In this document: one piece after another, positions 39,803 to 45,257 of the stretch
How the letters are laid out: every line of letters begins with the position of its first letter
Numbering within the stretch: position 1 is the stretch's first letter
From: Desulfobacca acetoxidans DSM 11109
Lineage (GTDB): Bacteria > Desulfobacterota > Desulfobaccia > Desulfobaccales > Desulfobaccaceae
Reading direction: 5' to 3'
Assembly (NCBI RefSeq): GCF_000195295.1
Contig: NC_015388.1
Span: forward strand, 2,852,001-2,916,000
DNA length: 64,000 nucleotides
Notes under the pieces: model-generated
Databases searched by the model: none
What the model was told of the DNA's origin: nothing
The model's input: only the letters and a program-made list of their open reading frames with translations
Made by a program: the position numbers and the translations under genes

Positions 39803-41278
39803 TCATTCCTGTTCAAATTCCCGGCCGGTCCGCAAACACTCCTCCGCCCGCGTCAACTGCCGGCCCAAGTAGATGGCATGATTCAGATCCGAGAGGGCCA
39901 GGTCCCGAGCCAATTGATGCTGCAATCGGACCGCCTTTCTGTCACGGTATTCTTTCAAGGTGACATCGCCGTAGCGATGCTCCACCAGGATCTCGCCCTC
40001 ATCCAGACTGATCCTGAAATAACCGCAAGGGTCTTCCCGGATGCCAAAAGGTCGGCGGCCGACCACGGCCAGGGCCCGGTCCAACTCTTTGCGATCGATG
40101 CTGATGGAATGGCTCACCACGGTAATCGGGCCAATGGGCATACCTAATCTTAGGGCCACCCATTGCTGCAATGCCATGAGACCGTAGACGTTGGGCAGCC
40201 AGGCATCCAGGGCGTTGTGGGTCCGGAAGGTGGCCGTGAGGGTAAGCTTTTCGTCAAAGCGGCGAAAAAATGAAGATACAAAGCAAGGCTGGCCCTTAGG
40301 ATTTATCAGGTCACGGTTGTTGTCCCACAAGGTGAGGTAGGCCTTGCGGTCCTCTGGGTCTGCTCGGAGGCGCTCCAAACAGGCTTTAAGATTATCAGCC
40401 CCGAAATAGGCCCGCAACCGATTGCCGTAGCTGTAGGTTTCGTCGGCCCCTTTCTCCCCCCGCAGAAAATCCCGCTGATACGTCCGCAGCTTCTCCGGAT
40501 CAAAGTGAAATTCCCTTAGGGCCTCCTCCGGGTCAAAGACCGGCCGCTGAATCACCACCTTGACATTCTGCAGCTCCAACCGCTCCCCTTTGGCCAGACG
40601 GACGGGGTGGGCAAAACGGCTGATGATAAAAAGCAGCTCCTGCCAGGCCTCCAGAAAAGTGTCCCGCACGATGGTATGGGCCTGGGGGCAACTGGGAAAA
40701 TGCGAAATGCTCACCCGGGGCAAAGCAATTTCCTGCCGGTCCTTTTCTGTAACCGGCGCCTGCTTCTCTGGCCGCCAGCCATTAAAAAACTCCCGTATCC
40801 GGGCGAGCGTCCCGTCGTCCTTGGGCTCCCCCAGCCAACACACGCGCGGCGTTGCCAGGAAATGTTCACTTCGCACGAGGCTGTCTATCAGGCGGTTCGT
40901 GCCGACTATCCGGCACGTCGAAACTTGTTCCCCGGAGGTCAGGGGCTCATAGGAGACCAGCGGTGAGGCCCCATATTCCAACCCCTCGGCAAAAAACTTC
41001 TGCAATTCTTCCAGCGAACCTGACCGGTTCCGGCCGCAGACCACCAGGGTCTGAATCTGGGGATTATATAACAGATTCCGCAGCAGCTCCCGCAGGCCAT
41101 TGCCATACAGGGTGCCGAAGACCGCAATGGGCGAAGTGGCCGCATCGAGGTCAACCCCGGCCTGCCGAAAACGCTCCCTGACATAATCCACCTTCGACCA
41201 CAGGGTAAGGACGCCGATGGTCCCGGCGGGATTGACGATGGTAAGTTTGTCCTGGAAGTAGAGGGGGATGAAGTTCAC
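39803..41278 (-). CDS. Thymidylate-synthase-like protein with MtrA-like N-terminal domain
   Basis: A 491-residue two-domain protein. Residues about 9-100 (KLTIVNPAGTIGVLTLW, then SPIAVFGTLYGNGLRELLRNLL, LVVCGRNRSGS) resemble the MtrA/DUF4346 domain known from methanogen methyltransferases. Residues about 200-485 follow the thymidylate synthase pattern: TYSYGNRLRAYFG near 281, RKAYLTLWDNNRDL near 311, a Cys at 332 in GQPCF (TS has PPCH), and FRTHNALDAWLPN matching R-S-x-D ... N. A dUMP- or dCMP-modifying role is inferred. Start is a GTG at 41278 overlapping the HEPN stop (GTGA), so translation is coupled to the MNT/HEPN genes. Confidence 0.7.
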   Translation of the reverse strand: MNFIPLYFQDKLTIVNPAGTIGVLTLWSKVDYVRERFRQAGVDLDAATSPIAVFGTLYGNGLRELLRNLLYNPQIQTLVVCGRNRSGSLEELQKFFAEGLEYGASPLVSYEPLTSGEQVSTCRIVGTNRLIDSLVRSEHFLATPRVCWLGEPKDDGTLARIREFFNGWRPEKQAPVTEKDRQEIALPRVSISHFPSCPQAHTIVRDTFLEAWQELLFIISRFAHPVRLAKGERLELQNVKVVIQRPVFDPEEALREFHFDPEKLRTYQRDFLRGEKGADETYSYGNRLRAYFGADNLKACLERLRADPEDRKAYLTLWDNNRDLINPKGQPCFVSSFFRRFDEKLTLTATFRTHNALDAWLPNVYGLMALQQWVALRLGMPIGPITVVSHSISIDRKELDRALAVVGRRPFGIREDPCGYFRISLDEGEILVEHRYGDVTLKEYRDRKAVRLQHQLARDLALSDLNHAIYLGRQLTRAEECLRTGREFEQE

Positions 41279-41685
41279 GAGTCTATTTTACGATCAATCA
41301 AAGCTTTGAGTTCCGAATAGATTTTTCCAGCCTCAGTCAAGGCCTTTTGGGCTTCGGCCAAACCGGGCATACCTTCGGGTAATAATCCTATTTCTTGCGG
41401 GTAGCGGCTGTCAAGATAGATATCGTTTAAAAACCTGAGCGCTTCGGCATCCATATCGATACCGAATCCTAAGGCCTCTTCTGCCTTTTGTCGCAGCCGG
41501 ATTAGATTGTGGCTCCGGGGGATTGGCTGACGGCGTGCCGCCAGGACAGCTTTTAAGGCTTTTTCGGCACATTGCTGGGCGTGAAAGCAAGTCATCGTGA
41601 ATATTCCAGCCGCCAGCAGAATTTCAGCGCTCCGCAAGTCATCAAAGGCAAATTGCAGCCAATTTTCATGAAGGTTTTCGGTCAT
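41275..41685 (-). CDS. HEPN-domain protein
   Basis: About 136 residues from the ATG at 41685. The helical pattern FAFDDLRSAEILLAAGIF, CFHAQQCAEKALKAVLA and LDSRYPQE is that of HEPN proteins that accompany MNT nucleotidyltransferases. It overlaps the MNT gene by 20 nt and the thymidylate-synthase-like gene by 4 nt. In this class the HEPN protein usually binds or is modified by the MNT partner; no R-x4-6-H RNase motif is clear apart from RSHNL, so toxicity is uncertain. Confidence 0.8.
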   Translation of the reverse strand: MTENLHENWLQFAFDDLRSAEILLAAGIFTMTCFHAQQCAEKALKAVLAARRQPIPRSHNLIRLRQKAEEALGFGIDMDAEALRFLNDIYLDSRYPQEIGLLPEGMPGLAEAQKALTEAGKIYSELKALIDRKIDS

Positions 41686-42007
41686 AGACAGTGACGCCGG
41701 TGGCCAAAATATGATGGAGAAAAGATGAGGGATGATCCTTGAATCGTTCCACCTCCTCTGGAGTGTAGAAGAGGATATCCAGACCAATATTTTTATCCAG
41801 GTCGTGCAACAACCGCCTGACTTTTAAACGCCGGTCCAAAGGCCGCTCCCGGGAAGGGGCAATGATCAGGATATCAATATCACTATACTCATCCGTTCTG
41901 CCGGTCACCTGCGACCCGAACAGGACAATTTTTTCCAGATCGATCTGCCCGGTCAGCTTCTGGATGATTTCGTTGATGAGTTTATTCAACTCTCCATGAA
42001 AGATCAT
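41666..42007 (-). CDS. MNT-type nucleotidyltransferase
   Basis: About 113 residues from the ATG at 42007, which is 6 nt after GAGGAG. The core LFGSQVTGRTDEYSDIDILI is G-S-x9-10-D-x-D, the catalytic signature of minimal nucleotidyltransferases. With the overlapping HEPN gene it makes a two-gene cassette different from the MntA/HepT pair at 6 kb. Its 5' region is part of a 64-bp segment that is repeated at 43.1 kb. Confidence 0.82.
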   Translation of the reverse strand: MIFHGELNKLINEIIQKLTGQIDLEKIVLFGSQVTGRTDEYSDIDILIIAPSRERPLDRRLKVRRLLHDLDKNIGLDILFYTPEEVERFKDHPSSFLHHILATGVTVYDRKPS

Positions 42008-42058
42008 GCTCATCTCCTCGGACTCTAAACTTTTCTCCCGGTAATTGCAATCGGCTCA
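41995..42058. repeat. Near-perfect 64-bp direct repeat, copy 1
   Basis: Covers the last codons of a gene fragment (ending GRKV-stop), the ribosome site GAGGAG and the first codons (MIFH) of the MNT gene. Copy 2 at 43078-43142 has the same three parts before a HicB remnant. Confidence 0.85.
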
Positions 42059-42357
42059 CCCGCCGGTTCGAAAGCCGGATTATCGCCGGCATACTGCTGC
42101 CAGCGGATTTTGTTGCGCTCTTTCCCCAGGAGTTTTATGTCGTCAGTCTGTGCTATAGAGGGTGCCGCAGAAATTGGGGAGGAGCCAGGATCAAGGTTAA
42201 CCCCGGCCTGGCGGAAGCGTTCCATAAAGTAGTCCACCTTGGACCATAGGGTGAGCACGGCGATGGTCCCGGCGGGATTGACAATGGTCAGTTTATCCTG
42301 GAAGTAGAGGGCGATGAAGTTCTTAGGAGTATTTAGAATATTCACGCTCAGGCTCAA
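42025..42357 (-). pseudogene. Remnant of a second thymidylate-synthase-like gene
   Basis: The first 55 or so codons repeat the N-terminus of the 39803 protein (NFIALYFQDKLTIVNPAGTI, VLTLWSKVDYFMERFRQAG) and then break at SSPIS into an unrelated tail ending in GEPIAITGRKV. The TTG at 42357 overlaps the relE stop. It is read as a truncated duplicate joined to a foreign 3' end. Confidence 0.75.
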
Positions 42358-42635
42358 TAGACCTCTTTATGGGTTCCCAGCGTTAACAATAGTATTGCTT
42401 CTTTTCCCTGGAAAGTAACAAAATCAAATAGTATCCTTAGATCGTAATCGACGCTGCAGGCCCAAGAGCCCTCTAATTTGCCCTTTAACTTATGGGTTTT
42501 CAGCTTGGGATGAAAAGCATTTTCAGCCAATAGCTCGAGGGTTGAATGAAATTCCCTAATGATATCAGGGTTCTTTTTAACTAATTTTTGAGCCGCCCGC
42601 ACGAAAGCCGGAGAACGAAGGAGCGGGCGTTTCAC
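42354..42635 (-). CDS. RelE/ParE-superfamily toxin
   Basis: A 93-residue toxin-like protein, LLRSPAFVRAAQKLVKKNP, LKTHKLKGKLEGSWACSVDYDLRILFDF, ILLLTLGTHKEVY. This is the RelE/YafQ fold, an mRNA interferase that cuts in the ribosomal A site in studied cases. It overlaps the upstream antitoxin-like gene by 4 nt. Confidence 0.85.
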   Translation of the reverse strand: MKRPLLRSPAFVRAAQKLVKKNPDIIREFHSTLELLAENAFHPKLKTHKLKGKLEGSWACSVDYDLRILFDFVTFQGKEAILLLTLGTHKEVY

Positions 42636-43090: not shown

Positions 43091-43142
43091 GCTCATCTCC
43101 TCCAAACTCTAAACTTTTCTCCCGGTAATTGCAATCGGCTCA
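43078..43142. repeat. Near-perfect direct repeat, copy 2
   Basis: 65 bp almost identical to 41995-42058, with a 1-nt indel next to the ribosome site. Its left edge contains the HicB remnant start; its right edge coincides with the point where the CARF regulator gene is cut. Confidence 0.85.
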
Positions 43143-43937
43143 ATTATATATAATTACCCTCAGTCGTTCATCTTTAGCTGTTGCCACGATCCCACAGAAA
43201 TTGATGGCAATGAACCGGTCGGCGGGACGGCCGCTGAGCCGGTGGAGAAACCGGGCAAAGAGCTCCTTGCCCGTGCCGGTCTCCCCCAGGATCAGGACCG
43301 GAACGTCCGATGGGGCCAGCAGCGCCCCGGTTTCCAGGGCCTTGACGACGCTCGGATGATCGCCCACAATGCCGCTCTGCCTGATGGCCGTCTCCAGGTC
43401 CAGCGGTTTTACGTCCGCAATCTCAGGTGCCGCCAGGCAACTGCGCACCACCGGAAAGCCGGGCTGGGTCAGGTCCACCTCCTCCAGGAGGGGCCTCTCG
43501 GCCGTGACAAATTTCGGCGGCCGGATATGCAGCAGCGTGGCCGGCAGTTCCCCCGCCGCGGCCAGCAGCAGCCAGCAGGCGTGCATCTGCGGGGTGCCCG
43601 AGGCCACCGAGATGAAATAGGTGGCCCGGGGATGCGCCGAACTGATCTCCTGGAAATGACGGCGCAAGCCGGTCAGGATCGCCAGGTAGTCCGTGGGATC
43701 GTTGAGCGGTAGATCTCTCACTTCCAGGCGAATATTGGGATACTGTTCTTTTAATGCCGTGGTAGTGAGTCGGGTGTTTTGCCGGGTGTTCGGCGTGTCA
43801 AAGAGAATGACCTCATCAAAGTTTCGGACTGCCAGCAGGGACAGAATGGGCCCGGGCACCTCCTCGCCGCCAATAAGGCCCAAGGTGTAAGGATCATGGA
43901 AGCCGGTAAAGGTGAGGAGGATATTCATTTTGTTCAT
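43140..43937 (-). pseudogene. Truncated CARF-like / sigma-54 AAA+ activator (RtcR type)
   Basis: Residues 1-150 form a CARF-like domain (ILLTFTGFHDPY, DTPNTRQNTRLTT, YFISVASGTPQMHACWLLL), as in RtcR-type regulators that sense RNA-derived or nucleotide signals. A linker is followed by the start of the AAA+ sigma-54 interaction domain with Walker A GETGTGKE at 218. It breaks after FIAINFCG with an unrelated tail, exactly at the end of the 65-bp repeat. Walker B, sensor 2, GAFTGA and the helix-turn-helix are lost, so it cannot activate sigma-54. Confidence 0.8.
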
Positions 43938-44476: not shown

Positions 44477-44549
44477 TGGGCGCGCCGGCTGGAAAGGTGG
44501 CGCCACCATCTTTCCTGCAAGGCATCACGGGCTGCAGAAGGGAGGGGTC

Positions 44550-45257
44550 ATGACGCTTATCTTGGGTCTGGCGGCAGTGGACGGCATTGTCCTGGCTTCC
44601 GATGGCCAGGTGACAACGGGAGAAGTGCGTTCGCCGGGGAAAAAGATCTTTCCTTTAAGCAACAGTATCCTCTGGGCAGCGGCCGGGGAATTATCACTCA
44701 TTCAGAGGGTGCAGGAGCGCCTGACGGCCCTGCCTTTGGACGCCTCCCTGGCCAATCTTAGGGACCAGATCGGCGAGCTGATCAAAAACTGCGTTTCGGA
44801 ACTGCTACAGATGGACTTCCGTTCCCAATTTCTGACCCTGGATCAAGACCGCCTGATCCAGTTGCATAATGCCGAATTTATTTTTGCCGAATACAGCAGA
44901 AAACCCGAACTGCTGCATCTGAGCGTCTTCGGTTCGCCGGAGTGGATCACTCAGCGGCCTTTTGTAGCCGGCAACGGCGATCTCTTCGCCTATGCCCTGC
45001 TTAGCAAGTATCAACCCCAGCATCTCAAACTGGAGCAGGCCACCCTCCTGGCCTATAAAGTAGTGGAGGAAGCCATCGAAGTGGGGGCCTACGGCATCGG
45101 CGGGCCGATCGATCTCTGGCTGCTTTCGGCGGCGGGAGTAAAAAAACTCAGCACCGCAGAACTCCATAACCTTGCCGCACACGCCAGAAAACTCCGCAAA
45201 CAAGAGATCGAACTATTGCAGAATCTGGCGCCAGAAACCATTGCCCCCGGCAGATAG
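44550..45257 (+). CDS. Proteasome-like Ntn hydrolase (stand-alone)
   Basis: A 235-residue protein from the ATG at 44550, with GGAGGGGTC directly before it. After Met removal the N-terminus is TLILGLAAVDGIVLASDGQVTTG, matching proteasome beta/HslV: Thr1 nucleophile, Asp17 (ASDGQ) and a Lys (PGKKIFPL). LWAAAGELSLIQRV corresponds to the first helix. It is longer than HslV and has no HslU neighbour. Peptidase activity is likely by analogy; substrate and partner ATPase are unknown. Codon use is like the neighbours. It stands between the decayed island and the Pst region. Confidence 0.7.
   Translation: MTLILGLAAVDGIVLASDGQVTTGEVRSPGKKIFPLSNSILWAAAGELSLIQRVQERLTALPLDASLANLRDQIGELIKNCVSELLQMDFRSQFLTLDQDRLIQLHNAEFIFAEYSRKPELLHLSVFGSPEWITQRPFVAGNGDLFAYALLSKYQPQHLKLEQATLLAYKVVEEAIEVGAYGIGGPIDLWLLSAAGVKKLSTAELHNLAAHARKLRKQEIELLQNLAPETIAPGR

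Follow-up and report, generated by a model that had tools for sequence, protein, structure and literature searches.

BPH and Anbu are stand-alone homologues of the proteasome in which Thr1, Asp17 and the Lys are in place, yet in the parts of the papers drawn on here both are inert on standard peptide substrates (PMC5777263, PMC6376114, PMC5666114). BPH is described there as a protein with an elongated pore loop whose start Met is removed to expose Thr1; the exposed Thr1 reacts with epoxomicin, while peptides and casein are not cleaved (PMC5777263). In Anbu the start Met is removed before Thr1 as well, and tests with three standard substrates (PMC6376114) and with a standard set (PMC5666114) revealed no activity. 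Its gene forms an operon with transglutaminase, ATP-grasp and Alpha-E genes (PMC5666114), and its subunits assemble into a split ring, while connectase is a monomeric ligase (PMC8665760). Homologues without an unfoldase have precedent (PMC8665760, PMC5777263). In the sections cited, Fuchs et al. 2021 list 22 further proteasome homologues, prokaryotic and in some cases from phages, whose function and AAA+ partners are not known; the authors state that their genome contexts were uninformative and revealed no AAA+ partner (PMC8665760).

The window analysed here is a stretch of 64,000 nucleotides of the chromosome of Desulfobacca acetoxidans DSM 11109 (NC_015388.1, positions 2,852,001 to 2,916,000). 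One of its genes encodes an uncharacterised, distinct member of the known proteasome-like family, which the genome carries besides HslUV (Table 1). A preliminary description of this DNA had placed the gene at 44550-45257 and given the protein a Met-Thr start, and both were confirmed: the frame, for 235 aa, runs from the ATG at 44550 to a stop ending at 45257, and Met-Thr is found in 14 of 14 members of the family. The open reading frame listing also holds a longer, GTG-initiated alternative from 44472, and the frame is open between the GTG and the ATG. The ATG, which would leave the protein without a propeptide, appears much the likelier start, because a stretch resembling a ribosome-binding site precedes it and because in four orthologues (L014, L004, L005 and L008) the frame is open for no more than 3 to 6 codons ahead of the Met-Thr.

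Table 1. Position in the window of the gene, its putative ribosome-binding site and the active-site and structural features of its product (residues numbered from Thr1 for the catalytic positions; family counts from the 14-row alignment)
Feature	Position	Strand	Basis or conservation
PF00227 Ntn-hydrolase gene, 235 aa	44550..45257, including stop	+	ATG start; Pfam, orthologues, predicted fold
gggaggggtc, ribosome-binding-like	44540..44549	+	Immediately 5' of the ATG; read by eye
Thr2 codon (Thr1 after Met removal), candidate nucleophile	44553..44555	+	Invariant, 14/14
Asp17 codon	44601..44603	+	Invariant, 14/14
Lys31 codon, equivalent to proteasome Lys33	44643..44645	+	Invariant, 14/14; archaeal beta alignment
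Gly45 codon, equivalent to oxyanion-hole Gly47	44685..44687	+	Invariant, 14/14; alignment
Proteasome Ser129 position, Asn	44973..44975	+	Family: Ser 12/14, Asn 2/14
Proteasome Asp166 position, Gly	45084..45086	+	Family: Asp 9/14, Gly 5/14
Proteasome Ser169 position, Ile	45096..45098	+	Family: Leu 13/14, Ile in the window protein only
Predicted pore-loop site, residues 89-107, H1/H2 to strand S5	44814..44870	+	Model; 7/19 positions invariant in 14 rows
Predicted long C-terminal helix H5, residues 202-226	45153..45227	+	Model 2

The protein matches the Pfam Proteasome model (PF00227) above its gathering cut-off (5.7e-11, 42.9 bits, cut-off 22.4). It stays far below the cut-offs of two NCBIfam models, the archaeal beta-subunit model TIGR03634 (2.1e-11, 43.8 bits, cut-off 224) and the HslV equivalog, where the match is marginal (E 0.19, 11.4 bits, cut-off 137). 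When profiles were matched to solved structures, archaeal beta subunits came out best (8.3e-11 and 1.3e-10). Aligned to solved beta subunits, the equivalents of Thr1, Asp17, Lys33 and Gly47 are kept in 14 of 14 members, in an alignment without the copy of genome G400, whose two parts lie on separate contigs (L018/L029 and L019). Two residues had been singled out before by counting from the Thr, and both choices hold: the Asp does stand at residue 17 and is invariant, and the Lys at position 31 is kept throughout, as against 12 of 14 for the neighbouring Lys30.

The second network of the active site, a proton relay for the Thr1 amine, presents a different picture. The Ser129, Asp166 and Ser169 positions are all three replaced together in the window protein, by Asn, Gly and Ile, and at the Ser169 position the family is one residue longer than archaeal beta subunits in the alignment. 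For the proteasome, in the part of the study cited, an Ala in place of Asp166 reportedly blocks both autolysis and catalysis, and the activity of the yeast enzyme is much reduced by D166N (PMC4792962). Where maturation involves no autolysis, losing Asp166 could be tolerated as far as this step is concerned; a proton relay would still be needed for efficient hydrolysis. As HslV sequences also vary near the Asp166 position in the alignment, read by eye, a loss there need not mean inactivity. An alternative is that the protein is a non-proteolytic Ntn enzyme, a transpeptidase/ligase or an amidase, with one dedicated substrate, as connectase is in methanogens. Such an enzyme would agree with a first triad that is kept beside a second network that is eroded (Gly in 5/14, Asn in 2/14 and Leu or Ile in 14/14 members), with the joint change of all three positions in the window protein, and with the characterised stand-alone homologues, for which the accounts cited above give no measurable peptidase activity. 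Against it, nine of the 14 members retain Asp at position 166.

The predicted structure bears on the same alternative. A model built from an alignment of close orthologues only was poor (pLDDT 62.8), while a second one, built from a 37-row alignment with distant homologues, reached a pLDDT of 93.5 and a pTM of 0.89, so that a proteasome-beta sandwich fold can be predicted with confidence. The second model superposes best on 6bdf_1 (Z 25.0, 1.8 Å, 190 residues), then on the mycobacterial 5lzp_N (Z 24.6, 2.8 Å, 210 residues), on 1j2q_H (Z 24.4, 2.1 Å, 191 residues) and on Anbu 5nyw_J (Z 23.8, 2.4 Å, 213 residues); these top matches differ little. Residue 2 is the first residue aligned and lies opposite residue 1 of 6bdf_1 and 1j2q_H. 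The earlier assignment to a bacterial type calls for caution: the best profile matches are archaeal, in superposition the mycobacterial beta subunit is tied with archaeal ones, and Foldseek ranks eukaryotic beta5 chains first. Helices H1-H4 are present in the model (H1 at residues 48-58, H2 at 67-88), and strands 3 and 4 follow each other without an insertion. Connectase, as described, lacks H1 and H2 and carries a two-helix insertion between S3 and S4 (PMC8665760), and together with the retained Asp166 residues this makes a non-proteolytic enzyme a rather unlikely alternative. The pore-loop site was placed after the description in the same source (PMC8665760). The long C-terminal helix H5 is as in Anbu and bacterial proteasome beta subunits, the aligned range extending to residue 232 on Anbu 5nyw_J and to residue 229 on the mycobacterial 5lzp_N.

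The protein had also been held to be distinct from HslV, with the advice to look for hslUV elsewhere. The chromosome is a single contig of 3,282,536 bases, and at E 0.001 PF00227 matches two of its genes, the window gene and, 144 kb away, hslV, which encodes a protein of 183 aa (C1:2752113-2752625; 1471-2022 of locus L001). A hslU gene directly follows hslV and a tyrosine-recombinase gene precedes it, both named by eye. HslV shares PF00227, the Thr nucleophile, the Asp and the Lys with the window protein; unlike the latter, it is only 183 residues long, has by eye a short leader before the Thr and adjoins hslU. In a 37-row tree, 13 HslV rows, picked from the HslV loci retrieved and cut back to the Pfam domain, group in a single clade (99/93) that excludes the window protein in 200 of 200 bootstrap trees. 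A divergent HslV that works with the HslU of this genome could be suspected from the common superfamily, from the presence of hslU (named by eye) and from a match to the PHROG 'peptidase HslV family' (2e-9), but is very improbable given that a separate hslV directly precedes hslU, that the HslV clade leaves the protein out, that the equivalog scores 11.4 bits against 137, and that the protein has 235 rather than 183 residues, with an extra C-terminal helix. The clade, the equivalog score and the separate hslV-hslU pair rule out that the window protein is HslV, and the protein was not found inside the HslV family with an HslU partner, the one outcome that would have spoken against the earlier view. 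Among the genomes of the order, for which the HslV relationship was checked, HslV occurs in 13 of 14 carriers of the window-type protein and in 11 of 15 non-carriers; the window-type protein therefore does not replace HslV, and neither excludes the other.

The statement that no hslU, Mpa/ARC or second subunit gene adjoins the gene also stands: none was seen when the frames of the window were read by eye (at least 90 aa between 38 and 52 kb, at least 200 aa across the whole window), and a Pfam scan of 22 nearby genes, a subset of the neighbours, revealed no unfoldase. The next alternative is a beta subunit of a true 20S proteasome. Archaeal 20S beta subunits (6bdf, 1j2q, 3h4p) have the same fold as the model (Z 23.8-25.0) and share with the window protein the equivalents of Thr1, Asp17, Lys33 and Gly47 and helices H1-H4, and the top profile and superposition matches are archaeal and actinobacterial proteasome beta subunits. 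However, the window protein has no alpha partner, no predicted propeptide and a longer C-terminal helix, its Asp17-to-Lys spacing is two residues shorter, it has Asn, Gly and Ile at the Ser129, Asp166 and Ser169 positions, and identity in the superpositions is 16-20%. The PF00227 search of the one-contig genome yielded HslV and the window gene and no alpha subunit, and a search with TIGR03689 found no Mpa/ARC over cut-off (best 233 bits against 504.75, a tandem-AAA protein). With the TIGR03634 score of 43.8 bits against 224, a true 20S proteasome is ruled out by these three results, and we regard a 20S beta subunit as extremely improbable.

The tandem-AAA protein, 715 aa long (G000:C1:2004096-2005496, locus L169), was considered as a partner. 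By eye we take it to be of the Cdc48/VAT type, with a neighbour that presumably resembles gas-vesicle GvpF/L, and for these two reasons it was not taken as such. Three other AAA genes were matched in the same search, of which two read by eye as FtsH and one as another AAA protein.

With Anbu (5nyw, 5nyj, 5loy) the window protein has in common that no unfoldase gene lies nearby and that the C-terminal helix is long. The transglutaminase/ATP-grasp/Alpha-E operon was not seen beside the window gene when its neighbours were read by eye, four Anbu-like rows of the same phylum (named by eye) form their own 100/100 clade apart from the window protein, and the Anbu profile matches the family over residues 1-54 only. 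When profiles of the groups were compared, the nearest was that of two unnamed homologues of the same phylum (L012, L129; probability 97.1), followed by L128 (88.2), HslV (78.0), Anbu (69.3), L133/L013 (56.9) and L058 (1.1). Among the homologues named in PMC8665760, PHD and WPH would be natural homes for the window protein, compared here by description only: in the part of the paper cited, PHD is named after Deltaproteobacteria and comprises 38 sequences at 70% identity, a coiled coil is predicted at the C-terminus of WPH, and OGP72033.1 and WP_040339656.1 are given as representatives. The 38 sequences of PHD would exceed what the 15 genomes found here could contribute.

By eye, the homologue L129 (G158:C37) would have Ser in place of Thr1. 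Genome G050, also a carrier of the family, holds a second divergent proteasome-like frame (L013 1495-2109) with Gly at the Thr1 position by eye, while its relative L133 (G356) keeps the Thr there, also by eye. The frame L058 (G167:C119:147-677), from the same phylum, matches PF00227 with 174 bits, far more than the 94.6 of the HslV in its genome, and is perhaps a true 20S proteasome subunit.

The family is narrow, being found in 14 of the 29 genomes of the order, the own genome included, and in one metagenome-assembled genome (MAG) of a phylum with four genomes in the collection. Within its own family of the order, D. acetoxidans is the only carrier among seven genomes (0/3 congeners, 0/6 other family genomes), while in the other family an orthologue is present in 13 of 22 genomes; twelve orthologues of the order are 53-64% identical to the window protein. 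Of 395 genomes drawn evenly from the phylum, nine gave strong profile matches (E <1e-100), all of them in the same order, and 17 others gave weak matches (8.6e-6 or worse) confined to part of the profile. When 84,980 species were scanned with the family alignment, at least 13 loci were obtained, twelve of them those of the order and one new (L032); since the scan used two short patterns only, this is a lower bound, and G050, present in the count for the order, was missed. The single-sequence scan of genome contigs gave no match. L032 is 48% identical and comes from the MAG, the only one of the four genomes of its phylum with a match; as the contig is only 4 kb long, it may be misbinned.

A mobile or viral origin was considered and dropped: plasmid records (72,556) and phage records (50,697) gave no match at E 0.01, viral contigs gave none with the single sequence, and PADLOC matched nothing in the window protein at E 0.1. 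In the 37-row tree the 14 family rows do not form one clade (3 changes), and the very long rows L128 and L058 fall among the members; the tree shows what the window protein is not, and one origin of the family is not proven by it. In it g7, g246 and g8 join the window protein, though the support is weak (75/92), which provides a lead that the gene was gained from another family of the order. The orthologues are under strong purifying selection, with dN/dS of 0.09-0.15 in all seven pairs compared, which were drawn from members other than the window protein.

The gene is convergent with the pst operon and on its other side adjoins a shortened RtcR-like regulator (43140-43937, minus strand). This has RtcR and Csm6-type CARF matches followed by 61 of the 168 positions of a sigma-54 domain, so that it ends inside the sigma-54 activator domain. 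In the congener G002 the block of pst, topA and dprA is syntenic (pstB 91%), and the 58 kb compared hold no such gene and no convincing remnant (best tblastn E 0.037). Nine window genes from 36.6-44 kb, on the far side of the gene, likewise had no match in these 58 kb. The position at the end of the synteny with the congener, the absence of a match in six of six other genomes of its own family and the replaced second-network residues would suit a relic, either catalytically dead or structural, or a gene that this genome is losing. However, the reading frame is intact and all four core residues are kept, and dN/dS is low in the seven orthologue pairs, the window protein being in none of them; we consider a relic unlikely.

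Two further observations concern the flanks. Between 45355 and 58460, by eye, phoB-phoR is flanked by two sets of genes for phosphate uptake that point in opposite directions, an arrangement conserved in G002. On the minus strand at 39803-42635, the start of a 491-aa protein (39803-41278) is by eye repeated in a 110-aa frame (42025-42357), around which lie a nucleotidyltransferase/HEPN-like pair and a RelE-like gene, also by eye; we read the segment as a partial duplication beside toxin-antitoxin-like genes.

Elsewhere the gene occupies other places. Of 13 related loci, six lie between dprA and topA-trmFO (in L026 the contig begins inside dprA), three beside sensor kinases and response regulators, three near xseA and one behind an OLD-like nuclease. 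In D. acetoxidans itself dprA-topA-trmFO is 13 kb away, with the slot there free of the window gene. The slot has other occupants: a weakly SNase-like gene in three of six cases (20.4 bits, narrowly missing the Pfam threshold of 21) and, in L027, Fic-like and short-chain dehydrogenase genes by eye. Because both slot contents and loci vary, a conserved dprA-topA operon was abandoned as a clue to function and the place is treated as a variable slot; an accessory gene fits better than part of a fixed operon. None of these contexts hints at a substrate. In L032 (402-3815, MAG AUK292) there is a four-base overlap between the homologue and a gene for a 152-aa protein (PADLOC PDC-M19A, 9.3e-14), and the latter gene lies behind one for an OLD-like AAA+TOPRIM nuclease (PADLOC Old, 9.3e-56), possibly a small defence module.

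We slightly favour the view that the window protein is an accessory, lineage-restricted, stand-alone Thr1 Ntn hydrolase that acts on selected substrates without an unfoldase of its own. Methionine aminopeptidase would remove Met1 and expose Thr1, the subunits would form homo-oligomers, and these may hydrolyse one or a few small or unfolded peptide or protein substrates without a dedicated AAA+ unfoldase, as proposed for BPH and Anbu. The residues of the window protein at the S1-pocket positions described in PMC5666114, Val20, Gly29, Ala43 and Leu47, would hint at a hydrophobic P1 preference. A selective processing enzyme seems more likely than a bulk degrader, because the proton-relay residues Ser129, Asp166 and Ser169 are Asn, Gly and Ile. 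The term self-compartmentalising peptidase, used in the preliminary description, remains putative and unproven, since BPH and Anbu are inert, the three second-network residues are replaced, and the relatives include the split ring of Anbu and the monomeric connectase.

A bolder and quite doubtful variant is that the branch of the window protein kept Thr1-Lys-Asp, lost the proton-relay network and became a dedicated non-degradative Ntn enzyme, either an amidase or the equivalent of connectase in bacteria, which travels as an accessory gene through variable slots and may have a role in stress or against phages. Were this true, the slots would include the dprA-topA interval and, in a single distant MAG, the place where the gene overlaps a small gene behind an OLD-like nuclease.

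Among the titles listed in searches of the open-licence literature, none concerned this family. 'HslV' would be the wrong annotation for the window gene, because a genuine hslUV is present besides it. For most prokaryotic proteasome-like homologues no substrate is known, and the stand-alone BPH and Anbu are silent in the assays of the sections cited. The family described here is a compact, alignable set of 14 full-length members in which the first triad is fixed while Asp166 is kept in nine and lost in five, and with this split the role of the second network in proteins other than the 20S proteasome can be tested directly.
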